Shown here: one piece after another, positions 6,782 to 63,221 of the stretch | Position numbering within the stretch: position 1 is the stretch's first letter | How the letters are laid out: every line of letters starts with the position of its first letter | Assembly: GCF_000006405.1 (NCBI RefSeq) | Contig: NW_003206658.1 | Span: forward strand, 194,176 to 258,175 | Length of the DNA: 64,000 nucleotides | Direction of reading: 5' to 3' | DNA from: Perkinsus marinus ATCC 50983 | Taxonomy: Eukaryota > Perkinsozoa > Perkinsida > Perkinsidae | Position numbers and translations under genes: made by a program | Notes under the pieces: generated by a model | Database searches by the model: none | The model's input: the letters and a program-made list of their open reading frames with translations, nothing else | Told to the model about the DNA's origin: nothing

Positions 6782-8309
6782 GGGAACAAGACCGTGGTAA
6801 CGTCCTTCCAAGCCTTTTATGGTCACCCTAGTATGCCCTTTAAAATGAAGTATGAAGGCAACAACAAAACCGTTGAGTGAGATCATGCTTGGTCGTCGTC
6901 GTTGCTTCATGACCATCCCTTAGGTGGAAGGTGCCCCCCGACACTGTAGATTACTCGATCGTTTTACCCATCTTTATCGATGGGCTCAGGGAAGTGCTCC
7001 CATTGTAAGAAACTCAGTTCTCCTACTGAATGGAGAAGCTGAACTCTGCGTGCAAATTTCACAGTGTTGCAAGCATCTTGAGCGTGCAAGTATTGCAAAA
7101 TTCTATTATGTTACAATCACAATTGGCAAAGAAATTTGCATGGGAGAAGGTGTGGTCGGGCCAAAATATTTTCCTGAGATACGATAAGGTGATATTAATA
7201 TGTATATAATATAGTTCATTGAGATCGATGATTACGAGTGCTGGAAAAAATATTCGTTTTCTTCAGCTGCTGAGCTCAGGAGTTTTTTCACTAATTATAG
7301 GAGTTTATATACGAATTCGAGTAGAGATGTACAGGAAGCTCCCAAAATTTCCTCAGAATTTTCATATTGCCACCGACACATGTAGTTGACCATGTGCATA
7401 TTTTCCCCACTGTCAATTTCACTCTATTATATGGTATAGATATAGATTATCGTATATTGGAGTTTCACCAGTTTTACGTGAAGTGGCGTAAAACTCCGTG
7501 AAAAACGCGATATTAGCGCCTTGCAATAGTCGTGAAATATGTTTTTCGCTAGTGTTTTTCATATCACTAGGGTGAAACTCCATTACTAATTATAACTGAT
7601 GAAACAACAGATTTGAATATATACTAACAGCGTCTACAAATATAGTATAATAACGAATGTCGAACTCATGGTACTCATTTACGCGAAGGTACGAGACTGT
7701 AGCGCACGCAGGAGCTCTAGAGCTGATCCGACGAGGTGGCGATCGCCGCGTGGTACCTGTACTGCCTAAGCTCGTAAGATATTCTTCGCAGTGCGCTATA
7801 TAGGAAGAATCTTTGGCAACAGATTCAGCCGTTGAAGCGGGCGTTGAATAGCAGAGATCCGCACACTCTGCGCAAGGTCAGTGGCTTGGTAATGTCGTTC
7901 GTGGATGTAGTTGTGTTTAGACACTAGAGCTGATTCAAGTTATGGTAAGAAGTGGCGAGATGATCGGCGAGGCTCTGGTGCCGTATTATCGACAGTTGTT
8001 GCCGGTGATGAACATGTTCAGAAATCAGAGGAGCAGGAGTAGCGGCTTGAGGCTAGTGGGAGCCCTTTGTGACCTACTTGTGTTCAGGAGGCGATATGGA
8101 CTGCAGGCTGAAGAGGAATATTGGTGCTGTTGTAGAGGACACTTTAGGAGTTCTGGAAAAACGTGGTGGAGAAAATGTAAGTGCTTTCTTCTTGTGGTGG
8201 TTCGTAGTAGCTCCGTGATGAAGCAGCGGCCGTTGTTATTGTGTTCTATTAGGCGTTTATTAATATCAAGTATATGGTGCCAACGTACGAATCCCATGTG
8301 CTCAACTAG
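6782..8309 (+). CDS. PACRG: PACRG, axonemal inner-junction protein
   Basis: Seven exons join in frame: 6782-6876, 6924-7004, 7689-7773, 7823-7888, 7930-8038, 8087-8176, 8253-8309. Diagnostic segments in order: [99 protein letters not shown] and [18 protein letters not shown]-stop. This matches the Parkin co-regulated gene product, which with FAP20/CFAP20 forms the inner junction between A- and B-tubules of flagellar doublets. The C-terminal block is nearly invariant in the family. The first exon(s) are not settled: an open segment from 6188 (MMTSTPQVVAPL, ending at a GTGAAA donor near 6407) is a candidate. The third intron here (7005-7688) contains one family B and one family A element. Confidence 0.9.
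7237..7412 (+). repeat. family B element, copy B1
   Basis: Carries the family hallmarks CAGCTGCTGAGCTCAGG, CGAATTCGAGTAGA, and ACATGTAGTTGACCATGTGC followed by ATATTTTCCCCA. It lies in a PACRG intron. Confidence 0.8.
7456..7584 (+). repeat. family A MITE-like element, copy A2
   Basis: A complete, well-preserved copy: TTGGAGTTTCACC at the left and GGTGAAACTCCATTA at the right, about 129 bp. It lies in the same PACRG intron as B1. Confidence 0.9.
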
Positions 8310-22100: not shown

Positions 22101-25100
22101 GCTGTTGTTGTTGTATATGTTGTTGTATATGTTGTTGTATATGTCGTTGTTGTTTTATATGTTGTTGATCAGACCATAAAGGTATTGACAGCCCTGCAAG
22201 CGACCCTTGCAGCAAGACCTACTATCAAGCACTTCATCTTCTAATCGAACGAGATCTCAAGGAGGGCAACGCCTCGGTCAGCGATCTGCTACTGTGGTGT
22301 GAGAAGTCACAAGAGCTGTGGTTTGAGGAAATCTATGACAAGAAAATGGGTAACTTACATTTTTGTCTAAATTATTTTTCATAATTAATTTATATTAGAG
22401 TTTCACAACCCGTTTTACGTGAAGTGGCGTAAAACTCGGTGAAAAACGCGATATTCGCGGCCTGTAGTAGTCGTGAAATATGTTTTCCACTAGTGCTTTT
22501 TCATATCACTAGGGTGAAACTCAATTATATAATATAATGGCCCTTTATAAATATAATTATTAAATCACATGAGATTATAATCACAATAGACTAATAAAGA
22601 TATTATATACAATAACTTTATATTAAGTTAACCATATAATATTATCTATATATTTATAATTATAATATTAAGATAGCGTAGAAATGTATATTTTTTGTAC
22701 TGAGCATCACTGCTTTTACCGGGCAGATAGTAGCCATAGAGAAATATGGCTGCGAACTCAACAGCAACACCGAAATATATAATGGAGTTTCACCCTAGTG
22801 CTATGGGGAACATTACTGCCAGACGAGTTTCACGACTACTGCAACCACCGCAAATATCGCGTTTTGTACTCACTGAGTCGTGAAACTCCACTGGAAGAAA
22901 TTAACATATGAGGCCAGAATACTTACATATGCATGTGAATTGGTTTATCAGTATGTAATACGACCAAAGCCATGGCACTATTAATAAAAACAGTGTTGGA
23001 GGAATATATGCTCGCCTTCCTCAGCGGAGTCTAGTTATACAAGTTTACATACGAATTCGGGCAGTAAAAGTGTGGAGAAACCAACGAGAATTTCCTGAAA
23101 ATTCTTCTCAAAATTTCTCCGAATGTCATGTTTTCAAACACCGGAGCGCTGATTTATTATGAGTTGATTTTAAAGAGCTCGATTGAAGTATGGTGGAATT
23201 GACAGGTTCATTGGCGCTGTTTTCGGGTCTACAGATAATGCTGGAGGCTCTCAAGGCCCAGCTCCATCGGCTCCATCCTCAGTGAGTTGGTAACTACTCT
23301 TGGGAGGTGTAATGCTTGCAGGTCATTTATCAATCTGGCGGCGGCACTGGTCGTGCTAGAGGGGAAGCTGGACACCGCTGGGAAGTCGGATCGGCGGGCG
23401 AAGGATGACACTGAGGAGACGGGAGATGGCGAGTAAGGGTTGATTCCATTGATAGTATTGTACTCGGAGAATTAACGAGAAGTGGAACTCAATTTTCCAC
23501 GTATGGCTAGGAACACATACTTCAAACAGTTTCCCATGTAAATGTCATCATCACATTAGGAACATCATTTTTTCTCATTGTTATCAAACCCTAGAGAACG
23601 TTATTTCTCGGAGGTAGATGTGCCGTTGACCATACCTCACACTGCATGTATAATATTCATTGTGATAACAACAGGTCATCGTTTGAAGGTATTGGAGTTT
23701 CACCCTAGTGATGTGGGAGGAGTTTCCACAGATCATCGCATAGCGCTGCGAATATCGGTTGCTTTTTTTTCACAGAGTATTACCCCACGGGTGATACTTC
23801 ATTATATTTCGTTTAGATATCGATAGACTTTGATGTTGAAGGAAAGAATTCATGTTCTGTTATTTGTATAATGGAGTTTCACCGCCCTAGTGATATGGAA
23901 AACACTAGTGAAAACATATCACCGCGAATATCGCGTTTTCCACCGAGTATTACGTCGCTTCGCGTAAAACAGGTGAAACTCCATTAAAAGTACTATCATG
24001 ATTCACATCAGTTACGTATATGTGCCTCTGAGAATCTGTGATACGTTACAGCTTATGATGGACTTTGTAGAGGACGTCGTCCTCGAGGGCGACCCTTCCG
24101 TAAGGAGGCCCTTTGGTCTGTGGTTTACATAGAAGTGTTTAGGTTAATCGCCTGTCAACAGCGACAGAGTTTATGCACACTATTATTCCTGTCCTCCATA
24201 AAGTGTCTCTACGGAACTCTAGGTGGGGCTGCAGTGTGAGGAGTCAGCGTGGCAATGTGTTGCTGAAAATATGAAAATTCTGAGAAAATTTTGGGAAATT
24301 TTGGTATAGTTCTACCCAAAATTGTGTGGATTTTCATAATGTAGTGAGGGAACCTATAAGCAACGTATTTGAAGAGACGCTAGTCTGATCACATGCGAAT
24401 AAGATGAGTGAATTGATATGAATTTTTTGGGTATCATCAGGGCGTGCTTTCTCAGTTGAGGAAATCAAACAAGTATTCCAACACCGATTACCGTTGGAGA
24501 AGGAATATAAGTTTGGTTTCCTCATATGAGCTCATTGCATTCACACAAGATGTAGCTGCACAAAGATAAAAAACAATTTCCGGAAAATTTTCTCGGAAAT
24601 TTCATATTGTGACCAAAACACTGCTCACAGATATACAGCATGCGTAGAGCGGTACCTTCGACCGCAGCTCATGACGATTCATCGCGACGTTGAGGAGGGA
24701 GATTCCTGGGGAGCATCTTTGGTCGGCACTCACGGTCGAGAAAGCCGCCATATGGTAGCTTGTTGTATATGTGGTCATTGGAGTTCGATCGTTTTACGTG
24801 AAGTGGCGTAATACTGCATGTGAAAAACGCGATATTCGTGATATGGAGAGAATGAAAAACACCTGTGAATAACACCGGCCAAGTCACCTCATTTCGCGTG
24901 CTTTATGCGTTATTCGCCCCTCACATGCGTTTTCCGCGGAGTAAAGTTTGAAATTGTTTTTCACTGGTGTTTTTCTTATCACGGGTGAAACTCATCTTTG
25001 GATGGTATTTTACGAGTAGAAAACACGCGAAAATTTTTGGAGGATTTTGATATTTCAGTCGGTGATACGATCGCTCCGTTGCGCCGGAGTCATCTCGTCG

Positions 25101-34167: not shown

Positions 34168-34360
34168 TTTCTCCCATCACTGGAGACTAGCGACCATGCA
34201 CGCACTCGCAGTAAGGTAGGCACCTCAGTGGTGCTCAGCTGTTGTAGTTGCTACAAGTAGCTGTCTCGGTGATTGGTAGAGAAAGATTTGGACGTTTCTC
34301 AATATGGTTCTCTTGTAACCCTTAATAGTATCTCTTTGAAGGCCCTCTAGTGGTGCCCGG

Positions 34361-34549
34361 TGTAAGGGTTTAGGGCGTGCGCTTTCTCTAGTAGTACGCA
34401 GCCACATAGCGGAACTTAGAGCATGATTACTTCGAGGTAGCTATAGTTCATTTGTCACTAACCGTAGCCATCTTGGCTCAAGTTTCCCTTCTTCTCCTCT
34501 GCCTCGCGTTAGCCAATGTCGGCGCCGTCGTCCTCATCGCAACCCCACA
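34361..34549 (+). repeat. 5' LTR
   Basis: Starts TG and ends CA. It contains at offset 101-122 the leader-like sequence, then a pyrimidine tract (TTTCCCTTCTTCTCCTCT), an AG at 34511-34512 and the gag ATG at 34516. It is therefore promoter region, leader, acceptor and start codon in one 189-bp unit. Confidence 0.95.
34461..34482 (+). promoter_or_regulatory. spliced-leader-like 22-mer in 5' LTR
   Basis: Begins ACCGTAGCCATC and ends TTGGCTCAAG. The dinoflagellate/Perkinsus SL is, from memory, D-CCGTAGCCAT-Y-TTGGCTCAAG, so all 22 positions agree with the Y=C form. There is no GT donor directly after it (TTTCCC follows), so this is an SL exon copy, not an SL RNA gene. Confidence 0.9.
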
Positions 34550-36114
34550 TCACATGGCGATCTCGGTGGGACTCTGCGATGTCTGCAACCGCACCGGAGA
34601 GGCCAACGGTAGAGGAGGTAATCCCGGTAGTCCACGGGGTTGTGGACCAGATTCTAGAAGGGCCGGGAGTCAACAAATCTCGTATCGGTACTGTTATACG
34701 GAAGGGGGCTACTCTGTTGGCACAGTATTACGGTGGTCATGTTCCAGAGAATTGGAACGAGATTATTAGAGCCCCTGGTGCAGCTGAGTTGATCAAAGAT
34801 GAAATTGATCGCATATTCCCCCTTATCTACGGGGAAATACTTTTCTGTGTGGATGATGCAGGATTGGATTATGCTGATGGCGCTAGGGAATTGGCGGGAG
34901 TCTTATCTACTCGTATAATCAAAACCATATTGAAGCTGACGACGATAGACGAAGCGGCTATCCTATTCGATGGGTTTATCAAAGTATTGGCTACTTGCAA
35001 TGAACGTTCACAGTCGGCGATGAGCATCGCGCCTTCGACGGTGAATGTTTCGAGCGCCCAGGAAAAGAGTGACGATCGTGTCAATATAAAAGATTTACCA
35101 TTGGTTGATGGTGGCGAATGGGGTCTGGCAAAACTGGGTGTTGTATCGTATGATACCTGGCAGTATCGTATTCGTCTGGCATGTTCCTCATATGCTCTGA
35201 AGGGTCGCCGTGCGTGTTATTACGCCTTGCGGAACCTCTGTGGTGCTGAACGTACCTACGCCCATACGTGCTTGACCAAGGAGATACCCGAAGGCATCGA
35301 GCCATTGGATTATCTTTTACAGCGACTACAGGAGGAGTATGGATCCGTTTGGTCACACGGTCGGGCAAGGCAGCAGTTCCAGCAGGCCAAGAAGCAGAGC
35401 AACGAGTCGGTGGTATCGTTTATGTCACGGCTTAAGAGCATGGCAGTAGCACTGCCAGGGAAGTGCAACGTAAGTGAGGGCGAGTTGCGGCAGCGATTTC
35501 TCGATGGTATTCCGCCGGGACTTCTCGCTAAAATAAAGAGTCGTTACGGTCCAAAAATTTACGAGAAGAAATTAGAATCCATTGTGGATTCGGCAGAATT
35601 TTTCGATTCGGAGTATCAGCAAGGTCGGGATACTGTGATCGGACGGAAGGGTGGTGGAGCACGGCCACGATTTCCAGAGAATGGGAAACCGCAAGCTCGT
35701 GACGGTGGTCGACAGGAGAATGTTGATCGACCATTCGGTAAAGGGAATGCGATATCGGCCAATCTATCGAACATCCATTGCTATAATTGTGGGAAGGCCG
35801 GCCATTTCAAGAGGAATTGTCCTGATCTCTCACGCAATAGTGGGCGAAGTCCTTCTACTGTATCGACTTCTGGTGTTGCTGGCGAAGCCCAGAAACCCAA
35901 GGGCCCTGGGTCTCCTGGGAGACCAGCACAACCAACTGGGAGCGTAGAAGTATTCGTGGGAGAAGTTCGAGGAGTGTATGCGATTGGAGCCGATGATCGA
36001 GTTCCGAAGCTATTATGTAAGTTCGGCCGGCATGCTGCGATGAGGACGACGGCGCCGACATTGGCTAACGCGAGGCAGATGTGCTACTTGATAGTGGTGC
36101 GGCGTCATCACTGA
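34516..36114 (+). CDS. gag: Gag polyprotein (unspliced reading), 532 aa
   Basis: The ATG lies 3 nt after an AG acceptor and within the LTR. The first 11 residues (MSAPSSSSQPH) are LTR-encoded. Residues about 190-370 form a helical capsid-like region (for example WGLAKLGVVSYDTWQYRIRL, then VVSFMSRLKSMAVALPGKCN). A CCHC zinc knuckle CYNCGKAGHFKRNC sits at about residues 422-435, as in nucleocapsid domains that bind genomic RNA. It is followed by a basic, proline- and serine-rich tail. The frame reads through a strong GTAAGT (36017) and ends at TGA 36112-36114. If the 62-nt candidate intron is removed, the frame runs on into protease without a stop. The Gag stop would thus be used only in unspliced RNA. 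Confidence 0.9.
   Translation: MSAPSSSSQPHITWRSRWDSAMSATAPERPTVEEVIPVVHGVVDQILEGPGVNKSRIGTVIRKGATLLAQYYGGHVPENWNEIIRAPGAAELIKDEIDRIFPLIYGEILFCVDDAGLDYADGARELAGVLSTRIIKTILKLTTIDEAAILFDGFIKVLATCNERSQSAMSIAPSTVNVSSAQEKSDDRVNIKDLPLVDGGEWGLAKLGVVSYDTWQYRIRLACSSYALKGRRACYYALRNLCGAERTYAHTCLTKEIPEGIEPLDYLLQRLQEEYGSVWSHGRARQQFQQAKKQSNESVVSFMSRLKSMAVALPGKCNVSEGELRQRFLDGIPPGLLAKIKSRYGPKIYEKKLESIVDSAEFFDSEYQQGRDTVIGRKGGGARPRFPENGKPQARDGGRQENVDRPFGKGNAISANLSNIHCYNCGKAGHFKRNCPDLSRNSGRSPSTVSTSGVAGEAQKPKGPGSPGRPAQPTGSVEVFVGEVRGVYAIGADDRVPKLLCKFGRHAAMRTTAPTLANARQMCYLIVVRRHH
34555..34572 (+). promoter_or_regulatory. candidate primer binding site
   Basis: Five nt after the LTR end, TGGCGATCTCGGTGGGAC begins with TGG, as expected for pairing with a tRNA ending CCA. 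The complement (ending GATCGCCA, discriminator G) resembles serine- or leucine-type tRNA 3' ends. It lies within gag codons. Inference only. Confidence 0.4.
36017..36078 (+). other. candidate 62-nt intron joining gag to pol
   Basis: Donor GTAAGT, branch-like GGCTAAC, acceptor GAGGCAG. Removal joins codon TTA-T with AT to give TAT-GTG-CTA-CTT-GAT, in frame with the protease active site LLDSGA. Positions 36036-36079 are a 44-nt perfect reverse complement of LTR positions 34498-34541. Branch and acceptor therefore come from an antisense LTR piece. Confidence 0.7.
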
Positions 36115-39100
36115 TGGCAGACGCAGTAGCGTCCCAGCTGATTGCATCGAATGATGCGTGTTTGAGAGAGTTGAAGACACCCGTGAAATTATCGTATGCT
36201 GGTGCAGCAGAAGAAGTATCTCATCAGGAAGTTATCGTTCCAGTGCAATTGGAGAGGAAGACTGGTGAGTGGTTCTATTTACCTTTTATCGTGGTGAAGG
36301 GATCGAACCGAGGGATTCTACTAGGGCGATCGGCTATGTGCTGCTTCAATATTACTTTGAAGTTCGCAGGGGATTCGGCTGAAAACGAACAATTGCGAAA
36401 TGTGTATGAGCAGGCATCTGATCAACGGTCAGAAATGAGATCGGTAGTAGAAGAAGAGAAGATTGATGCAATTTATGTACACATCGATCAAGTTATTGAA
36501 GAGCCTTCTGTGATAGAATCCTCGCATCCGTTCCCCAATGACTATGATGCTATCGGTGGTTCGTCTCAACTATCATGGGTGGAGAAATCTATCGACGAGA
36601 TACTCAGCAATGCGAAGAAGCCTCCATTAGCTGAGGGTATCTCCGATAAGGAGCGATTGAAGTGCTATGTCGACGCTGCTCTTTCAGAAATTTCTCGTGC
36701 TGGCTTCATTGAGATTAACGACGGGTATCGCGGTCGTTTGAAAGAATTATCCAGCGACGAGATTGGCAATACGAAATTATGCGATAATCCAGTACAGCGA
36801 TTTCAAGTTGAGATTGGCTGGGATATCACAGCCGATAATGAGGCGCAGCAGCTGCCGTGGGATAGTACTCGATTGATAAACAATTTGACCTCTACGCAGT
36901 ATAGTGAGTGGCAGAAAGAGATCTCGAATTATGTCGAGAAAGGCTGGTGGATCCCGTCGTCTCGCGAGGAAGTTCTCTCGCAGGGGCTCTCCACCATGGC
37001 GGGTTCAGCATTCCCGGTGCTTCAACCGGAGAAGTCGACGAAGGTGCGTCCTTGCTTGGATCTGCGAAGATGCAATCGTGCCAGTCCAAGATGTTCATCG
37101 AGTCCGACATCAACTCAGACGAGTGTGCAGTTGTTGAGATCCTTCCTGTCTGATGATAAATCACGTTTGATGATAAAGCAGTTTGATTTACAAAAAGCGT
37201 TCTATAGTATTCGAGTAGCTCCACAATTCACGGACGGGCGAGTCTTACCGTTAGCTATTCGGGTCGGCGATGATTATTATACGTCGAAATGTCTTTGTTT
37301 CGGGCTGACATCGGGCCCGATAGGACTTTACTTTTCACAGACTATTATAAATAAGTGCGCCCAGCTAGTGACTAGCTGGCTTCAATGTGATGCCGACAGA
37401 TCCGAGATGGCTTGTCGTGGTATGGCTCGCATTATTCTCGTTATGGATGATTATCTTTTTGTTGGTTCTTCTGACGAAATCGCCTTTACAGAATCACTTT
37501 ACGATTGCTTATGGTCCCGTTGTGGCTTCAATTGCAGTAGTGAGAAGCGTGCCCTCTGGTCAGCAGACTCTCCCATTCGATGGCTTGGTGCATATTGGTC
37601 TTTTGATGCAGATATCCTTAAGCTGACGATGAAGAGACCAGTTGTAGAAAGGGAGTTGCATCATCCATATACCAAAAGGCAGATCTTCAGTGCAGCTGGA
37701 GTATTCCTAGCACTGACAGGTGGATTCTGTGAGACCTTGGCGAGAGCTCATGCTGACACTCTCCGACGTTTGAGTGGTGGATGGGCAGACTGGGATAGTC
37801 CTTGCCAGGATTCCCAGGTATGCAATCTCTTGTCAAAGCACTTCGACTGCGCGAAGTTCTATTGGAAGGCGAGCTCTGCAGAAGATGAGAATCTGAAAGT
37901 ATATGGAAGCATCACCGATATTGAAGTACGCACTGATGCGTCTAAAGTGGGTTATGGATTCGTGGTGGTGGATCGTGGTCTGGTGGATGGGACTGATAAT
38001 ATCTACAATCCATCAACGATAGTGTATTCCGAGGCGAAGGGCTTCAATAAGAAGCAAGATGTATGGCATTGCAATCGTAAAGAATTGTATGGATTGGCAA
38101 TGTGTCTTCGACGATTGGATACTCTATTGGTATTGATGCCACATCTGAAATCAATCAGAGTGAGCACTGATTCACGTGTCACACAGAAACAAAGTGACCC
38201 GTGGGCCTTGACATCTGGGAGCAAGGCATTGGAGAAGCAAGCTATTCTGCGACTCCGGAATATGATTATTGATTTGAATTTCGATTGGCGACGCCGGTCT
38301 ATACGACTAGAAATATGTCACGTTATAGCAGCAAAAAATATTCATGCGGATATGTTATCACGAGCTCCGGAAACGACCATATGTATTCCCGTGGAAAGAC
38401 CAGAGGGGGAAATGATCGCCCCAATCGCGGTAGAGCCTACAGGCGAGACGTCTAGTGACTCGGGTAATGGAGTCACGGTAGAGTCATCGCAGAACTTAGG
38501 TGCTTGCGAATATGGTATCGGGAATGACCTTCTTGGGTGGTCATGCTTTATTGTACCCAGTTATAGGAGATTCGTGGGGTTACAACAAATATTTGGCGCA
38601 TGGAGGTCCACAGCAGGACAAAGTGCTGCAGCTGATGACAAGTCGCCGGACAACTGCAATGGTTCACGATTGCAGTGGCTACGTTACGAACAAGTGCGTG
38701 ATGCTGAAACGAATCGTGCCAGAGAGGCACTCAATTCTGACCCGTCGCTAGGAGAGAAAGCGACTGGATTCGTCTACCGATTATTCCTCAACAAGGAAAA
38801 TCTGTTATGTCGTTGGATTCTCCTCAAGAGTGGAGAAGGGCGAAAAGTCTTGACCCAAGTTGTAGTGCCGAGGCACCTTATGTCAGAGATTGCTGAGGCT
38901 GCACACCATCAAGCAGCGCATGCAGCATTCTATGAGGTATCACACAAGATCGCTGAAGTGGCATGGTGTCCGGGAATGAAGAAGATCATCAAGCAGACTA
39001 TCAATGCTTGCGAACCATGCCAACGCTCGGTGGTAAGACCATCGGATATTGCAGAAGAAACGGGAGGCATTGGTGTTCCTTCCGGTCTATTTCGGACCGT

Positions 39101-40313
39101 GGGGATCGATCTATATGGTCCTATGCGATCTCCAAGAGTAGGGATGGCAGCTACGGCAAAAACGGAGCCACCTTGGTACGTGGTCACCTTTGTATGCCGC
39201 TATACTGGCTTCACCTGCTTTCGATTAATACCTGATTGTCGAGGCAGTACTGTTGTGACGGAAGTCGAGAAGGTTATCGTGTGGCAATGGGGAAATGTGA
39301 CGGATCTGATCATAACAGATCAGGGAAGTCAGTTCTGTCGCCATCCGGGATTCTCGTCACTATTATTGATGAATGCTGTGCGACATGAAGTCCTGCCAAG
39401 CAGGAGTCCTCACCTTGGAGGATTCTATGAGGTGAAGCACAAAGTACTAGGACGCTGCCTACGCTCTATGCTACAAAATGCCAAGATGCCAGATTGGGAA
39501 CTTATGCTATGTATTGCTGCTAATCGTATTAACAATTCTACCCCAAAGGATGGTGCTCCGTCTCCTTTCGAGTTGGTCTATGGGTACTCGTCTAAGCTAC
39601 CGATTGCTCGCCTCTTGACCGCTGATGATAATGCAGCCGAAGAGTGGGAACGATTGCGTCCGAAATTCCTTCCCTCGGATCCGCTGCACAACGCTCAGGT
39701 GATAGCTGATTGCCGTCGCCGTATCAAGAGACGTGATCATATGCTTGGAATTTTCCGAGAATTCTGGTTGGATAGGAGACAACACGCTGCAGTGGAGAGC
39801 AGCAAGAAGAGCACTGGTACTCAGCCATTGGAGGCTGGAGATATTGTTCTTATTACCAAAGACCGGAACCCCAAGTTGGGTCAATATGTTCGAGATGAGA
39901 AGTATAAAATTATTGGTGCTAAAGGTAAACAATGTTATTCTGTCAAGCCGGTCGATGGTGGGGCGCCGATGATCGTTCACGCAAGAAATCTGCGCCGATT
40001 CTTTACTTATGATGAGGATGATCCCCATGTGGAGGAAGATCACCCTACCGGAGCCTCAGGTTTCAGCGATGAAGAGCCATTAGCTCACGATGAGGGGAAC
40101 CCTGACTCCAAGGTTCTTGATAATACACCCCATGAAGGGGGAGAAGATCATATGTCTTATCCTTTACTTATTGACGGGACCACAGAATCCCAGAATGGTA
40201 CTGCTACTACAACTCCGAGAAGATCTAAGAGGGATCATGAGCGGCATTTTTTAGAGGCTATCCAGGGGAGTACCTCACGTTATGGCCGCTCACGAAGGGG
40301 GAGAAAGCTGTAA
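36069..40313 (+). CDS. pol: Pol: protease, reverse transcriptase, RNase H, integrase
   Basis: The frame is open from 36069 to the TAA at 40311-40313 inside the 3' LTR. It has no ATG near its start and is in the -1 frame relative to gag. Aspartic protease: VLLDSGAASSLM at 36081. Reverse transcriptase: KVRPCLDLRRCN (about 37040), FDLQKAFYSIRV with the first catalytic Asp (37180), GLTSGPIGLYFSQ (37310), and VMDDYLFVGSSDE with the paired Asp residues (37441). RNase H: VRTDASKVGYGFVVVD (37925) with a C-terminal HADMLSR block. Integrase: an HHCC finger (HHQAAHAAFY to CEPCQRS, 38905-39025) and a D,D,E triad in GIDLYGP (39103), ITDQGSQF (39310) and GGFYEVKHKVLGR (39417). A basic tail follows (RRSKRDHERH) that overlaps the polypurine tract. 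All catalytic residues I looked for are present. Confidence 0.95.
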   Translation, partial: READVLLDSGAASSLMADAVASQLIASNDACLRELKTPVKLSYAGAAEEVSHQEVIVPVQLERKTGEWFYLPFIVVKGSNRGILLGRSAMCCFNITLKFAGDSAENEQLRNVYEQASDQRSEMRSVVEEEKIDAIYVHIDQVIEEPSVIESSHPFPNDYDAIGGSSQLSWVEKSIDEILSNAKKPPLAEGISDKERLKCYVDAALSEISRAGFIEINDGYRGRLKELSSDEIGNTKLCDNPVQRFQVEIGWDITADNEAQQLPWDSTRLINNLTSTQYSEWQKEISNYVEKGWWIPSSREEVLSQGLSTMAGSAFPVLQPEKSTKVRPCLDLRRCNRASPRCSSSPTSTQTSVQLLRSFLSDDKSRLMIKQFDLQKAFYSIRVAPQFTDGRVLPLAIRVGDDYYTSKCLCFGLTSGPIGLYFSQTIINKCAQLVTSWLQCDADRSEMACRGMARIILVMDDYLFVGSSDEIAFTESLYDCLWSRCGFNCSSEKRALWSADSPIRWLGAYWSFDADILKLTMKRPVVERELHHPYTKRQIFSAAGVFLALTGGFCETLARAHADTLRRLSGGWADWDSPCQDSQVCNLLSKHFDCAKFYWKASSAEDENLKVYGSITDIEVRTDASKVGYGFVVVDRGLVDGTDNIYNPSTIVYSEAKGFNKKQDVWHCNRKELYGLAMCLRRLDTLLVLMPHLKSIRVSTDSRVTQKQSDPWALTSGSKALEKQAILRLRNMIIDLNFDWRRRSIRLEICHVIAAKNIHADMLSRAPETTICIPVERPEGEMIAPIAVEPTGETSSDSGNGVTVESSQNLGACEYGIGNDLLGWSCFIVPSYRRFVGLQQIFGAWRSTAGQSAAADDKSPDNCNGSRLQWLRYEQVRDAETNRAREALNSDPSLGEKATGFVYRLFLNKENLLCRWILLKSGEGRKVLTQVVVPRHLMSEIAEAAHHQAAHAAFYEVSHKIAEVAWCPGMKKIIKQTINACEPCQRSVVRPSDIAEETGGIGVPSGLFRTVGIDLYGPMRSPRVGMAATAKTEPPWYVVTFVCRYTGFTCFRLIPDCRGSTVVTEVEKVIVWQWGNVTDLIITDQGSQFCRHPGFSSLLLMNAVRHEVLPSRSPHLGGFYEVKHKVLGRCLRSMLQNAKMPDWELMLCIAANRINNSTPKDGAPSPFELVYGYSSKLPIARLLTADDNAAEEWERLRPKFLPSDPLHNAQVIADCRRRIKRRDHMLGIFREFWLDRRQHAAVESSKKSTGTQPLEAGDIVLITKDRNPKLGQYVRDEKYKIIGAKGKQCYSVKPVDGGAPMIVHARNLRRFFTYDEDDPHVEEDHPTGASGFSDEEPLAHDEGNPDSKVLDNTPHEGGEDHMSYPLLIDGTTESQNGTATTTPRRSKRDHERHFLEAIQGSTSRYGRSRRGRKL
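40294..40308 (+). promoter_or_regulatory. polypurine tract
   Basis: GAAGGGGGAGAAAGC directly before the TG of the 3' LTR, the usual start of plus-strand synthesis. It also encodes the last Pol residues (RRGRKL). Confidence 0.85.
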
Positions 40314-40497
40314 GGGTTTAGGGCGTGCGCTTTCTCTAGTAGTACGCAGCCACATAGCGGAACTTAGAGCATGATTACTTCGAGGTAGCTATAGTTCATT
40401 TGTCACTAACCGTAGCCATCTTGGCTCAAGTTTCCCTTCTTCTCCTCTGCCTCGCGTTAGCCAATGTCGGCGCCGTCGTCCTCATCGCAACCCCACA
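40309..40497 (+). repeat. 3' LTR
   Basis: Identical to 34361-34549 by eye, including the 22-nt leader at 40409-40430. Its first five bases (TGTAA) give the last Pol codon and the stop. Confidence 0.95.
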
Positions 40498-40938
40498 CCG
40501 GGAGTGAATATTGTGTGCGGGGGGCTGTAGAGTTCATATTTAGTAATTCTGTCCGTGTTGAGTTTCCCCTGTACAATCCTTCGACACCTCTGCAAAGTCC
40601 ATAACAATAGCTCCACGAAGACGCTCCGATGAGTGCCACTGCCCATGAGCAAATGTTTCTCGTGCAGAATGTCAAAGTTGCCCGTAATACTTAGGAAATG
40701 CCTACTTGAGGGTTTAACTTGTGGGTATTGTTGAGTCGTCAATACGTACAATCGTACCAAACCACGAGACACAACTGATACGATGCAAAAAGAGAGAGGA
40801 TACTCGAAGATGGGAGTGAAGGTCTCCCAAGAGAGCAAGTTCACGGATAGCCGAAAGACAGATGACGGAATTTCAAAAGAAAAGCAAGACGTCAAGTCGT
40901 TGCTAAATCAGTGATCCAGTCTGATCACCTTCGGACCA
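40498..40938. other. flank of the retrotransposon; no gene supported
   Basis: A minus-strand open frame (40482-40895) runs into the LTR. In the pre-insertion sequence it would stop two codons after the target site, so the insertion changes only its last residues. I see no domain in it. Confidence 0.3.
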
Positions 40939-42150: not shown

Positions 42151-42304
42151 ACCGGTCACACCAACATCGCTCCGCTAAGAAATTCGATGAATCACAGGCA
42201 TGAGCTCCTCATTTTCGTGTAAGGTATGGAGTTACTCCATTAGAGTATTGCAACTTTGGGACGTCGCCTACTTCATTCTCAGTAAGGCCAATTTCTCAGA
42301 CCGG

Positions 42305-42585
42305 GGCGGCTATGCCATCATGGCAAGATATACCTCAGTACAGTCAAGTTCTCTGGGTGGGGCGGCTATGCCATCATGGCAAGATATACCTCAGTACAGT
42401 CAAGTTCTCTGGGTGGGGCGGCTATGCCATCATGGCAAGATTTACCTCAGTACAGTCAAGTTCTCTGGGTGGGGCGGCTATGCCATCATGGCAAGATTTA
42501 CCTCAGTACAGTCAAGTTCTCTGGGTGGGGCGGCTATGCCATCATGGCAAGATATACCTCAGTACAGTCAAGTTCTCTGGGTGGA
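42305..42585 (+). repeat. 56-bp minisatellite, array 1 (5 units)
   Basis: Unit starts every 56 bp (42305, 42361, 42417, 42473, 42529). Each holds GGCGGCTATGCCATCATGGC, AAGATATACCTCAGTACAG and TCAAGTTCTCTGGGTGG. Units differ by only one or two bases. Confidence 0.95.
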
Positions 42586-43836
42586 TGGCGCCTCTCCGCC
42601 CTTATCGACCGCCGCGCATGGGGGAGGGGTCCCCATATGCGCGTTTATTTTTTAACCTTTAGGAGCTCCCATCAAAAATGTGTAACTGCGGAGCCGATTT
42701 CGCGATCTAGCCTATAAATCCCACAAATTCCTTCACCAATCGACAGATCTCGATCTGCTGAACATCGCTGTGAAGCCGGATTTTCGATTTATAGGCTCAA
42801 TAAAAAGTTATTCACGTTTTAGTTTTCATCAATTCTATGTGAACCATGTTGCACAAGCAACTTCCTCTTCAACAGTCCTTCTAGTCTGGCAGGTTAAGGG
42901 CGCGCGCTATCACTCGAGACATCCAGGTTCGAATCCCGGTGGGGTTATATGGCGGAATAAGATTCAGCACTCGGAGTAGGTCAGCGACTAGGGTGGCACA
43001 GCGGTCAGTAGTGTATCGGTGAGAAGGACAATGCCCTCTGGGCTCTGGGTAGGCTGTAAGTCCATGCTCAGTGCTACCAAGCAACACTCAACTTTCGGCT
43101 GGCGTCTCGTACACTTTTAATATATATAGTAAGTTTGGTATAATGGTTAGTGTGACGGGTTGTCACTCGAGAGATCCAGGTTCGAATCTGAGGAATCACG
43201 TTTTTTTGTATCATCGTAGTAGCGATAGACCGTATAAATTTGGTTCAGTCTCATGGAAAGTGCCATGCTCTGCCATGCGGTTGACCTATATCCGACCTCT
43301 GACAGTTGATACGCGTACTAAGTACTGGTGATAATGTGCAGCACAAGGTCTTCGACTATGATTTAACTAACCACCACGGTGTACGGTACTAGAGACTGGC
43401 GACCCTCGACGAAACACAATTATTTAAGCGAGGTATTACTCTAGTGGTTATTCAGCCCGACTCTCATCCTAAAGGTCGCAGGTTCGAACTACGACGGGTC
43501 CGTGCGGGGTCCCCACTTCAGTGGGGTGCACGGACCAATCAACCATGCAGACTCGAACCCCCTCAAAGCAATGCAAAGTAACGCGCGAGAGCGCATCAGA
43601 GAGTAGAGTAGCACTCTAGTCCACATCGGAAAACTCAGACCAGTGCGCACGGCTAACAGTGCGCACTCAAGCCAGTGGTACTGGCTCAACACCAAACTAA
43701 TAGCACTAGTGGGTCACGAACAGAATGTGTCAGGCAGGATGATGCCGGACGAGGACGTCAAGTCTGCCACAGCGTGGCAGGTAGACTAGCAACTGGCACC
43801 GCAGGTGACAGGATCAACCAGCACACCGCTAGGTGG
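42586..43836. repeat. tRNA-derived (SINE-like) cluster
   Basis: Three tRNA-like heads follow one another: 42885-42950, 43129-43200 and 43432-43500, each with a B box GGTTCGAA. The first two share TCACTCGAGA and ATCCAGGTTCGAATC. The second has an A-box-like TGGTATAATGG. The third ends in a strong hairpin, GGTCCGTGC (43497-43505) with GCACGGACC (43528-43536), enclosing CCCCAC/GTGGGG. None folds as a full tRNA. The rest shows no gene. Confidence 0.6.
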
Positions 43837-44160
43837 GGCGGCTATGCCATCATGGCAAGATTTACCTCAGTACAGTCAAGTTCTCTGGGTGGGGCGGCTA
43901 TGCCATCATGGCAAGATATACTTCAGTACAGTCAAGTTCTCTGGGTGGGGTGGCTATACCGCCTCCCTAGAATATGCCTCAGTGAAATCAAGTTCTCTGG
44001 GTGGGGCGGCTATGCCAACAGCGCAAGATATGCCTCAGTACAGTCAAGTTCTCTGGGTGGGGCGGCTATGCCAACAGCGCAAGATATGCCTCAGTACAAT
44101 CGAGTTCTCTGGGTGGGGCGGCTATGCCACCATTCCAAGATATGTTTTGGTACAGTGAAT
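43837..44160 (+). repeat. 56-bp minisatellite, array 2 (6 units)
   Basis: Units at 43837, 43893, 43949, 44005, 44061 and 44117 with the same 56-bp period as array 1, but more divergent (for example CCAACAGCGCAAGATATGCC). Confidence 0.95.
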
Positions 44161-44850
44161 TGTGTGGGAGAAGCTCGAGAGAGCTTGCTCCCCGGCATAA
44201 CCAAATTAACTCCAATTCTTGAACTCTAACTGCGATGAATTGCGGGGATCATTTTGGCTGTTGGTAATGCGGCTCCCAGATATGTCATCTCGTGATGTCA
44301 AGGTGACACACCTTGTGGTTAGGAGAAGCTGGCGTGTATTTAGTAGCAGTTCGCCACATGGAGTCGACAGTAATTTCCAGAGGGTACACCTGCCCCTCGC
44401 GAGCTTAGCCATTTCTATCTACAGCGGGATTGATTTTGGTATATCTTAGGGTGATGGCACAGCCGCCCCGCCCAGTTGAATTAATCTTGATAGGAGCGAA
44501 ATGAGCTGTCTGAAGGTGTTCACAATGCGTGGAGTGATGCTGATGAACGCGCTCCTCTCTAAGTTCATCTGGGAAGCTAATGACTGCGCTGAATGATTGA
44601 GGCCGCCGTGGGGTTGCTCGGTCGTCTTGCGAAGAGGATATTCCTGTGTGCAGTCCAGCAGGCATGTCATCGGGGAGTGGGATATCATGGTGAACATTGA
44701 GTTCGCTGCAGCTTGTGCATCTTCCCTCCTGTTCTGCTCAAACTTCGTTGCTGGACTGATCTGTACAATCAAAAGCGGTTGTGTTGATAAGGTAGTTTGG
44801 GGTCACGAATTCGACATGGTTGAGAGTAAAAAAGGTATTCTCAGTTCATC
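44161..44850. repeat. spacer before HUS1 with one inverted minisatellite unit
   Basis: At 44447-44490, GATGGCACAGCCGCCCCGCC and nearby CAAG/CTTG matches are a single reversed unit of the satellite family. Remaining open frames lack recognisable domains. Confidence 0.5.
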
Positions 44851-46459: not shown

Positions 46460-46559
46460 TTCTCTCATGGGGATACTGTCGTGTTAGCACGAACGCGGCG
46501 ACTGGTGTCTTCTCCAGCGCCGACCCACCCGGAGAGAATTGATCGTCGTACGGCGTATC

Positions 46560-47330
46560 TTGGTTTGGTGGCATAGCTGCCCCGCCCGGAGAAAATTGCT
46601 AATATCTCAGGTTGGCGGCGTATCTGCCCCGCCCGGAGAAAATTGCTATTATCTTAGGTTGGTCGCATAGCTGCCCCACCCGGAGAGAATTGCTCATATC
46701 TTAGGTTGGTGGCATAGCTGCCCCGCCCGGAGAAAATTGCTAATATCTTAGGTTGGTGGCATAGCTGCCCCGCCCGGAGAAAATTGCTAATATATTAGGT
46801 TGGTGGCATATCTACCCCACCCGAAGGAAATTGCTAATATCTTAGGTTGGTGGCATAGCTGCCCCACCCGGAGAAAATTGCTAATATCTTAGGTTGATGG
46901 CATGGCTGCGCCGCCCGGAGAAAATTGCTTATAACTTAAGTTGGTGGCATAGCTGCCCCGCCCGGAGAAAATTGCTAATATCTTAACGTTGGTGGCATAG
47001 CTGCCTCGTTTAGCTGCCCCACCCGGAGAAAATTGCTAATATTTTAGGTTGGTGGCATAGCTGCCCCACCCGGAGAAAATTGCTAATATCTTAGGTTGGT
47101 GGCATAGCTGCCCCACCCGGAGAAAATTACTAATATCTTAGGTTGGTGGCATAGCTGCCCCACCCGGAGGAAATTGCTAATATCTTAGGTTGGTGGCATA
47201 TCTGCCCCGCCCGGAGAAAATTGCAAATATCTTAGATTGGTGGCATAGCTGCCCCGCCAGAAGAAAATTGGTTAACCCCACAGCATATCTTAGGTTGGTG
47301 GCATAGCTGCCCCACCCGGAGGAATCGACT
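46560..47330 (+). repeat. 47-bp minisatellite, about 16 units
   Basis: Unit about GGTGGCATAGCTGCCCC plus GCCCGGAGAAAATTGC and TAATATCTTAGGTT. Several units vary CGCC/CACC. Its reverse complement shares GGGTGGGGCAGCTATGCC and the AAGATAT word with the 56-bp family. It begins about 100 bp after the HUS1 stop. Confidence 0.95.
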
Positions 47331-47667
47331 GTATTAAGGCATTCATGCTGAACTTCCTACTTCCAATGGACCTCCGAAAATTTGAAATGATCTATGGCGA
47401 ATTTGAAAGTTCTAAATGCGAATATGATCGTCCCGTTTCGTCCTTCCAGCTCAGCGCGTTCTGATGGAATCGACTTCCAAGGACGAACTGGCGGAGATGT
47501 TTCAAAGGTGACGTTTTCAACTGATTGCCATTGTGGAGGTATATGAAGGACTGTGGGAGCGAGTGTTGAGTGAAAACTGTGAGCCGGTCCGATTCCCATG
47601 TACAGAGTGATGTGTTGTGTTGTCAAGAGCTTTACCGGATTTATCGGGGAGTTGTACCTGTCCGTAT

Positions 47668-56182: not shown

Positions 56183-59100
56183 TTACTCAGTGTGAACAAA
56201 CTGTAAAGGAGTCTGGTATTTTTCATCCACAGGGATAACAAGGCCGTCGAAAGAGGCTAAATAGGCGTCATTCCAGAACTTCGACAAGTGCCGCATGCCA
56301 CTGTCACACACAATCGTCACCACTCGTTGGCCCGGCTTGATGTAGCCACGCTTGTATCTGCGTAACACCATGACCAGCCGTGCATATAGCGAACGAGGCA
56401 AAACGATCGGCTGATGGACATTGGTAGAGGGCGGCACTGAGCCGTTATACCACACGGGTAGATTCGTCGAGCAAATCTCAATGAGCAAGACAATTCTGTT
56501 CCAGAATAGTGAGCTCGATATGAACTCCTCCGAGTTCCTCAATGGCTCTACCAACTTACGCTTTAACAACCGCAGCGACATTCAAGCTACCGCTGCTACC
56601 AACGAAGAGACCATCCTCGCGAAGGAGCCATCTTGACATACGCACAGCCTCGGTGTCCGAGATGGACACAGCATGGTCGATGAAGGGCAAGCCTGATAGA
56701 GAACTCTCGATGAAGGCACCATTGGGGAGAGGGGTGCGTACCAAGGGTGAAGTTGTGTGTGAGTCGGCCAAGGCCTATACCTTCCGTTACAGTATCGAAT
56801 GGATGCCTCACTCGGTAGCCCTCCTTGTCACGTTCATTGAATAGCACTCCTGTATTGATACGACGAGCTAAGGCGGAACCTATCGTAAAGGAGGTCATCG
56901 CAGTCGCGAATGGAGGGGCCGTCAGAGGCAACAGCATACAGTCCACTTATTTATGACAAACTGTTTTCCAGCCATAGCAATATCGCGGAAAAAGTTCTCA
57001 CCAAGATTCGAACCTGCGATCCCCCTAGTGCGCTTCAAGAATAGCGCGCGCAGTGTGATATTTTTGGATCTTCGAACGCCCCAAAAATACCTTCCGACTT
57101 AAGAGAACGTAAACTTTGCAAATGTATCAGCAACAAATACTGTACCATTTTATTGGAGGTCACCAGATACGGTGACCAAAGTTGTTTGCAATGTAACAAA
57201 AGGGGGAGGATAGTCTAGAGTCAAGGCAAACGCTGATCGAGGCGAGCGCTCATTGAAGTTTTGTGTGACCAGGAAGCTAGGCTAATAACCGATGGGGCCA
57301 ATAGAAGCTGGATGTTGCCTGTCGTTTTAGTTTGATAATATTTTTCCCACCAACCCGCCCAAAGGGAGATCTGAGTTCAAGTGGCTGAGAAGAATTATTC
57401 TGTCAGCCTCTTGTCTCAGATTGCGGCTCAGATGAGCTTCTGGTCTCCGAGACCCGAAAACCCATCTGACCAGCCACACAACCCATACCCCTTTGGTGCA
57501 GGTCAAACAACCCTTCCAATGAGATGGCCCCGACCTACCCGGTGGATCAGCCAGTATAACCGTCACTCGATCGTCACCAAGTTCGCTCTTCAGTCGAGCA
57601 GCGGTACCCGCCAATGTCCCCCCAGTGCCAGCTGCAGTTACAAACGCTGAGAGTAGAGGACTCATTTCGATCAGAGTCAGAAGCACTCCTTCTTACCATC
57701 GACTTTACCCTTCGTTTGCTCGAGAACCTCCTTCCCTGTACCGAGGAAATGCGCCCGGAAATTGGACTCGTTTTCGAACTGATCTGAACCCAAGCCCCAC
57801 AATCTACATCCAATTTACCGCTAGTGGAACGCCAGCATGGCAAAGGGTATAAAGTCCGATAGAATTCTCATTCATTCAAAAGATCCATTCAAGGGAGTTG
57901 AATGACGAACTCGCAGGGTCAATCCCTAGAGCCAGGAATTAGAGTTGTACAGCCGTTATACTGTAGTTCCACCCTAGTGATATGAAAAACACTAGTGAAA
58001 AACATATTTCAGGACTATTGCAAAGCGCAAATATCGCGTTTCTCACGGAGTTTTACGCCACTTCACGTAAAATGGGTGAAACTCCACTGTATATACGTTC
58101 TATGGTTCTTCGCAAACCGTTTTAGAAGAAGTGTATTTTTTCCATAGGCGATTCCGAAAAATCGATATTTCGAAAACACGCTACTTCTCATCAACGTGAA
58201 ATTAATCAGCTGCCACACTACTCGAACTGAGCAGCATGCGACTATGTAGGAGCAGTAGGATATCACAGTGATATTATCACTACTCACTGACGGAAAATAG
58301 TGGGATCGAATATAGGACGAATTCAGCGCATTTAGGGGCTACCACCACCACGACACAGGATATAGAAAATACCCGCTACTCACCAGCATAAAATCCCCCA
58401 GGGTCCTCCTCAGCTGCCTTCTCAGCAAGCTTACACATATGCTCGGGGTCAACTATCGATACGGGACGACACAGGTGCACCTGTCAATACTCTACTTCCA
58501 ATGCGCTACTGCTGAGGGACGATGATAACAGTTGCACTAATTTGGGAGATTCCGGATGAACATCACCAGAAACTAATCTACCAAAGGAATGGTTACCTCT
58601 CCCCCGAGAGTCTCAATGAGCTCCGACTTCTCCTTGGCCTGATCGTCCGGCATGAATATCACCGTCTTGTAGCCCCGCGCTAGGCCCGCCATTCTGAAAT
58701 CACCAGAGTGCATCATTCCCTCCTGTTGGCACAGATTCAGCACATACGATCGACCCAATCCCCCACAATAGCATAGTAACTCCCCTACCCACGATTAACA
58801 ACAGAGTGCACATGCTAAGGGAATGTATGTTCGCTTTCCTCAGCTGACCTCAGGACTTAACACGCGAAGGTGGAAAAGCATACCAAGAAACCAATAGGAA
58901 TTTACCACAATTTTCATATTGTCATGAAGTTGACCATGTACCGTTGCCAATCCATGAACAATCCACCTTACGTTAGGCTGATGCCAGTGCTGCCGCTGGT
59001 GCCCTCATAGATCGTCCCCCCAGCCTTCAACTGACCTTTCTCCTCCGCATCAGCTACTATCATCTTCGCCACGCGGTCCTTCGCAGAGCCCCCGGGATTC

Positions 59101-63150: not shown

Positions 63151-63221
63151 TGCGCCCGCCGGGAGTCGAACCCGGGACACAAGCATGGGAAGCTTGTATG
63201 ATACCGTTACACTACGAGCGC
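63151..63221 (-). tRNA. tRNA-Gly (anticodon CCC)
   Basis: 71 nt on the minus strand. Acceptor GCGCTCG pairs with CGGGCGC, discriminator A. D-arm region TAGTGTAACGGTATCA, anticodon arm CAAGC-TTCCCAT-GCTTG with anticodon CCC, T-arm CCGGG-TTCGACT-CCCGG. All stems are complete and both internal promoter boxes are intact. No intron. Confidence 0.95.

Follow-up and report, generated by a model that had tools for sequence, protein, structure and literature searches.

The question raised by this locus is why the spliced leader (SL) of the host should stand in both long terminal repeats (LTRs) of a retrotransposon. The stretch of DNA analysed (hereafter, the window) consists of 64,000 nucleotides (nt) of the Perkinsus marinus ATCC 50983 genome (contig NW_003206658.1; positions 194,176 to 258,175 of the forward strand), in which an LTR retrotransposon with open gag and pol frames lies at positions 34361-40497. 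The sequence ACCGTAGCCATCTTGGCTCAAG (22 nt) occurs once in each of its LTRs, at 34461-34482 and 40409-40430, and is the exon of the longer host SL RNA (three genes, in which the SL is followed by GTAGATATC); it is also the published 22-nt P. marinus SL, as given in the consulted parts of PMC3101222 and PMC9399869. Judging from the sequence, we consider it probable (roughly 0.68) that this is an LTR retrotransposon whose R (repeat) region begins with the host SL and is renewed through trans-splicing, and the genome-wide comparison suggests that many otherwise unrelated elements use and re-copy the host leader at each multiplication. Whereas R normally belongs to the element itself, it would apparently be supplied in this case by the host mRNA-capping exon.

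The leader in the window element

When up to three mismatches to the dinoflagellate form of the SL were allowed, the window gave two matches and 100 dinucleotide shuffles gave none. Both leaders are exact and lie in direct repeats that are identical over their 189 bp, have TG...CA ends, and are flanked by a target duplication of 4 bp (CCGG), and the occurrence of the 22-nt SL in both LTRs, as claimed in a preliminary description of the window, was thus confirmed. The leader is followed by TTTCCC, with no GT donor and no conserved SL RNA intron, so that it is not part of an SL RNA gene; in the other SL-bearing LTR classes (see below), the leader is followed by unrelated sequence, also without the SL RNA intron. 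A shorter, 21-nt host SL is present as well (five times on contig C102, twice on C77, and once on C272, with two variants on C21), and both leader lengths (22 nt and 21 nt; SL22 and SL21 in the following) are published P. marinus forms according to the same parts of the two papers.

Genome-wide survey of SL-like sites

The assembly (54 Mb) was searched with the SL22 and SL21 patterns, each with up to two mismatches (in the following, L-numbers are SL sites and C-numbers are contigs). The SL22 form was found at 97 places (34 of them exact) and the SL21 form at 57 places, and the reversed-pattern control gave 0 in each case. Sequence contexts were read for 97 of the 97 SL22 places and 52 of the 57 SL21 places, that is, for 149 of the 154 places; these comprised 13 SL RNA genes, 2 second tandem copies, and 134 other sites (94 of the SL22 type and 40 of the SL21 type), which fell into 39 upstream-flank classes defined by one chosen similarity threshold. 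Note that a looser pattern (19 nt, up to three mismatches), which gave at least 129 matches and 5 in the reversed control, was not used for the counts.

The search for other elements with LTR-encoded leaders, proposed earlier, yielded 83 sites (of the 134) in classes with at least one LTR-like, same-strand SL pair (spacing, 1.9-9.6 kb). The other 51 sites belong to classes without such a pair, and their LTR status is judged from context; at least one of these (L124) has more of the appearance of an SL RNA gene in decay. L076 and L077 form an inverted pair. Fifteen of the 16 SL pairs examined were aligned as LTRs (169-416 bp, 94.9-100% identity), with the SL located 84-323 nt into the repeat and 21-138 nt before its end, and target duplications of 4-5 bp were readable by eye in 9 of the 16 pairs. 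The C286 pair, whose alignment covered 1,516 nt, does not represent clean LTRs, and the alignment of C176 ended short of the LTR end visible in its relative; the determination of LTR edges covered pairs other than the SL21 pairs on C190 and C197. With the SL masked, the nine paired classes showed no mutual similarity at an E-value of 0.01, except for F and F2, which were similar in U3 (unique 3' region) only.

That these matches are due to chance, or are SL RNA pseudogenes unrelated to the elements, is scarcely credible. SL RNA genes do occur as tandem repeats in the assembly, decayed copies or lookalikes of them exist (L100 on C21, L101 on C104, and L124 on C60), and L124, one of the 134 sites, has SL RNA gene-like upstream sequence by eye; however, no match was obtained in the shuffles and reversed controls, the LTR pairs have a primer site and a target duplication, and a pseudogene origin of the LTR copies is rejected because no SL RNA intron follows the leader. 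For the paired classes, this explanation is refuted.

Probable position of the leader at the start of R

The proposal that the leader marks the start of R was supported at the DNA level by a concentration of changes at SL nt 2-3 common to both LTRs of an element, by chimeras with breakpoints at the SL, and by the position of gag just downstream. Among the 134 sites, variants were found in 57 of 268 cells at nt 2-3 and in 59 of 2506 cells from nt 4 to the end (Fisher test, p = 2e-29, with paired LTRs counted apart and sites not independent). When second copies were dropped, nt 3 differed in 28 of 74 SL22 and 8 of 38 SL21 elements. This 5'-end junction signature was found in 5 of the 11 families, in that nt 2-3 vary within families A, C, F2, G, and H. 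The letters at nt 2-3 agree between the two LTRs of an element in 18 of 18 pairs, and the change would therefore arise during the replication cycle, before LTR duplication; in retroviruses, errors are known at the end of the strong-stop DNA, at the U3/R junction. Variant SL RNA genes as the source of the variation at nt 3 were rejected, since every one of the 13 SL RNA genes with an intact SL that were read has ACCG (the assembly may lack some genes).

Thirteen pairs of sites, chosen by hand, were compared for chimeric structure, and a break at the SL was found in five of them. L123 and L140 are identical at 60 of 60 nt downstream of the SL and unrelated upstream; in three pairs (L037, L066, and L024), the downstream side is common and only about 6 nt are common upstream; and L010 and L065 have the upstream side in common and not the downstream side. 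The remaining eight pairs were related on both sides, weakly related, or unrelated. Breaks at the SL would be expected if unrelated elements shared R. As for gag, 14 of 16 paired 5' LTRs have an open reading frame (ORF) of 100 codons or more that starts with the first ATG downstream of the SL; the count is 23 of 78 when all sites with enough sequence, including 3' and solo LTRs, are taken, and 79 of 1560 for control ATGs upstream. In L065 (about 1080-1100) and L005 (about 830-840), which belong to classes F2 and E, the junction of the LTR end and the primer site apparently forms the start codon of gag (ATGGCGAC...). Taken together, these sequence comparisons support the view that, in many LTR families, the leader is located where U3 meets R.

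The leader in both LTRs, the junction errors, the position of gag, and the chimeras would be covered without splicing if RNA polymerase II started at SL nt 1 and the leader were simply transcribed and kept by selection for host translation or capping. Such encoded mimicry, which we regard as unlikely, also avoids a competing acceptor in the 3' LTR (see below), and TATAWA words upstream of the SL were found in 6 of 38 class representatives compared with 1.8 in shuffles. However, these words are scattered (-64 to -6), and the search for a core promoter with constant spacing to the SL gave none; the lack of a fixed-distance TATA signal is mildly against a plain transcription start at the SL. Further evidence on this point is given by the relict leaders described below. 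On the downstream side, GU-rich words (TGTGTT, TTGTTG, etc.) were found in the first 40 nt after the SL in 11 of the 38 class representatives (1.9 in shuffled sequences); they are possibly the downstream element of a poly(A) signal, in which case R would extend only slightly beyond the leader.

Conservation of the leader and its flanks

The core of the SL was compared with its flanks in 67 of the 134 sites, chosen from 11 families and for the most part with a single LTR for each element. Some members that were atypical or decayed (L083, L138, L134, L068, L051, L117, L107, and L122, among others) were left out. In family A, to which the window element belongs, SL nt 4-22 had 0 pairwise differences in 855 comparisons, versus 378 in 2655 (14%) upstream and 240 in 1800 (13%) downstream; the core was without differences in families C, F2, and O as well. 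In the pooled 67 sites, differences amounted to 231/4058 in the core, 2597/13292 in U3, and 1056/8645 in U5 (unique 5' region). The expectation that the leader is kept while its flanks diverge thus held best in the family of the window element, and did not hold in family B (see below).

Possible traces of trans-splicing

A further SL suffix (6-20 nt) directly follows the SL at 5 of the 134 sites, versus 5 of 5988 at other offsets, and three of these are clean cases of a partial leader behind an AG. In L019, the full SL is followed by SL nt 8-22, which fits TAG/CC at SL nt 7, as if the internal TAG of an older leader had served as the acceptor; the same pattern is known from dinoflagellate relict leaders. 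In L117, 20 nt are repeated and an AG stands just before nt 2 in its family, and in L123, 17 nt are repeated and its relative L140 has an AG there (TAG/TAGCC). L052 has part of an older leader upstream. In addition, both the SL21 and the SL22 forms are represented within families F, G, N, and B. The origin of SL21 as a random deletion of SL22 was rejected: among control one-base deletions, CC to C was found at 0 places and GG to G at 40, and at none of these was the control deletion a better fit than SL21 (at two places, the fits were equal).

The tandem partial leaders and the two leader types within single families suggest renewal by host trans-splicing and point to repeated addition, contrary to the encoded mimicry considered above. 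The earlier claim that the element uses host trans-splicing is accordingly retained as a suggestion from footprints in DNA. A role of the pyrimidine tract and AG before gag as the acceptor for the genomic RNA was not supported. This AG (34511-34512), which lies downstream of the tract, is followed by CCA and then by the gag ATG at 34516; the 30 nt between the leader and the AG, together with the AG, are kept in 12 of 15 family copies (by eye), and the use of this acceptor by the genomic RNA is unlikely because it would delete them. Comparison of site contexts indicated that the pyrimidine tract is a trait of the family of the window element and not of SL-bearing LTRs generally.

Proposed replication cycle

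From what is seen in the DNA (the leader in both LTRs, the junction signature, the chimeras, and the relict leaders), we infer the RNA start, the trans-splicing of the genomic RNA, the effect of the cap, and the strand transfer as follows. The RNA would start within U3 or at a point still further upstream, and trans-splicing would join the host SL RNA to an AG located at or in the encoded leader. Normally, this would be the terminal AG of the leader, and splicing there would restore the sequence unchanged and add the host cap. The RNA would then be translated with the leader as its 5' untranslated region and packaged. Minus-strand strong-stop DNA would be copied up to the modified cap-proximal bases, with frequent errors at SL nt 2-3, and would jump to the copy of the leader in the 3' LTR, whereby the new LTRs would get a fresh host leader every round. 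Since many families share R, jumps between elements could join one U3 to the U5-gag of another. We incline slightly towards the full form of this proposal, in which host trans-splicing overwrites the first 22 nt or so of R in each round and unrelated families keep an identical host-derived R and exchange U3 and U5-gag.

Several observations weigh against this reading. The core of family B is as divergent as its U5 (126/1481 versus 264/3143), and nt 2-3 are invariant in families B, E, F, N, O, and P. The C at nt 3 belongs to a CpG and is most often replaced by T (25 of 43 variants), so that the decay of CpG may contribute to the variation seen there; CpG decay alone was rejected, as G4 hardly varies (4 of 134 sites), 18 of the 43 variants are A or G, and the LTR pairs agree. 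The relicts of L067 (7 nt) and L107 (6 nt) fit no AG, and several of the mixed-type copies (L080, L086, L125, and L138) have additional changes and appear to be old. The acceptor that is also present in the 3' LTR would be expected to compete and to shorten the genomic RNA, which is a problem for any model with trans-splicing. In the consulted parts of Zhang et al. 2011 (PMC3101222), 3' rapid amplification of cDNA ends and RNA blots on SL copies of this kind gave no clear products; those tests sought SL RNA-like transcripts. Finally, the leader is not universal among related elements. A search with the reverse transcriptase (RT) of the window element gave 63 rows, of which 54, not all independent, were used (the nine others come from contigs that also supplied a row in use and, on inspection by hand, were taken as second segments of elements counted before), and 36 of the 54 had no SL site nearby; above 120 bits, 8 of 13 rows have an SL nearby. 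RT loci without an SL are those on C319, C49, C178, and C227 and the C98-like group, among others. On C258, the primer site is the same but for one base, and no SL was found in the approximately 150 nt before it. One RT match in this search (G000:C178:111993-112862) lies in an open frame of 4294 codons, far longer than the others listed.

The state of family B, in which the leader is no better kept than U5, and the existence of RT-bearing loci without SL would also fit a single event, in which an ancestor copied a trans-spliced RNA, the leader joined R, and U3 and U5 diverged by vertical descent with no renewal. We consider such a one-off capture quite improbable, as nine LTR classes are unrelated outside the SL (apart from F and F2), the core is without differences in four families (A, C, F2, and O), and single families contain both types of host leader.

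Renewal of R from the host leader, if true, would explain how LTR elements cope in a trans-splicing host, where splicing would otherwise replace the 5' end of the RNA and break the match in R needed for strand transfer. It also predicts a common recombination site that links unrelated element families, and it would leave genomic footprints of trans-splicing that can be studied without RNA.

Structure of the window element and its surroundings

The features of the element are listed in Table 1. The zf-CCHC and Integrase_H2C2 domains passed the Pfam cut-off, and RVT_1, RT_RNaseH, and rve were below it. On its LTRs, primer site, purine tract, and order of gag and pol domains, the element is tentatively classified as Ty3/gypsy-like. 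The predicted RNA fold from the leader to the primer site was unremarkable (z = 0.41). A protein search gave two distant pol relatives, without DNA context, and a protein-level search of viral contigs gave no relatives.

Table 1. Features of the LTR retrotransposon in the window (positions are those of the window).
Feature	Position	Strand	Note
Target-site duplication, left copy (CCGG)	34357..34360	.	Flanking sequence
5' LTR, 189 bp	34361..34549	+	TG...CA ends; identical to 3' LTR
Putative U3	34361..34460	+	LTR part upstream of leader; from nt 2-3 hot spot and chimeras
Encoded SL (SL22 form), putative R start	34461..34482	+	Matches host SL RNA exon
Pyrimidine tract and AG between leader and gag	34483..34512	+	Probably not acceptor for genomic RNA
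gag ORF, 532 amino acids (aa)	34516..36114	+	Start codon within LTR; zinc knuckle at aa 421-436
Primer binding site, 20 nt	34555..34574	+	After 5' LTR; complementary to tRNA-Arg(UCG) 3' end including CCA
pol ORF, 1410 aa	36081..40313	+	Order: weak protease match, RT, RNase H, integrase
Purine-rich tract	40297..40308	+	Adjoins start of 3' LTR
3' LTR	40309..40497	+	
Encoded SL of 3' LTR	40409..40430	+	
Target-site duplication, right copy (CCGG)	40498..40501	.	

Downstream of the element, the window has two tandem arrays (42216-44215 and 46475-47368, with units of 56 bp and 47 bp, respectively). A dispersed repeat of 93-133 bp occurs in both orientations (7453-7585, 22408-22500, and 57959-58091), and a tRNA-Gly(CCC) gene is located at 63151-63221 on the minus strand.

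Comparison with known systems

More than 100 genomic copies of SL1 and SL2 without the SL RNA intron were reported in P. marinus by Zhang et al. 2011 as unexplained orphans; in the consulted parts of that paper, they are mostly T-initial with variable downstream regions, were tested as candidate SL RNA genes and concluded not to be functional ones, and are not placed in LTRs (PMC3101222). Five of the six oligonucleotides of that study compared here match classes B, C, or O exactly (class C, 7 rows at 6 places; class B, 10; class O, 5), and shortSL1a/s matches none. What is added here is that SL copies of the orphan type sit in LTRs, at the putative R boundary, in many families, which gives the orphan copies a concrete explanation. 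Our literature search, which covered papers other than subscription papers and preprints and, for some topics, part of the papers found, gave no report of an SL inside LTRs.

Dinoflagellate retrogenes with a relict SL were reportedly described by Slamovits and Keeling in 2008 (cited in PMC3101222). The likeness is that SL-tagged RNA was reverse-transcribed and SL copies, sometimes in tandem (cf. L019), were left in the DNA (consulted parts of PMC12014239); in contrast to the window element, which has the leader in both LTRs and its own gag and pol (RT), those retrogenes are host genes, depend on the reverse transcriptase of another element, and have the leader at one end only. A 7-kb contig from a viral collection (L143; IMGVR_UViG_3300045993_001077) has two SLs of the dinoflagellate form on the minus strand (2746-2766 and 2893-2913, 147 nt apart), one of them just before a 254-aa ORF, and has the look of a protist virus carrying a cDNA of its host, or of a mixed assembly.

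The nearest transposon case found is Cer1 of Caenorhabditis elegans, also an LTR retrotransposon in a trans-splicing host. According to the consulted parts of PMC3315495, SL1 was present on some but not all molecules of its spliced 2.4-kb mRNA, whereas its 8-kb gag-pol RNA is apparently not trans-spliced, and no leader in the LTR is mentioned there. With Ty3/gypsy-like elements in general, the window element shares the LTRs, the tRNA primer site, the purine tract, the gag zinc knuckle, the weak protease match, and the RT-RNase H-integrase order; it differs from them in that its R would begin with a host spliced leader that is common to unrelated families.
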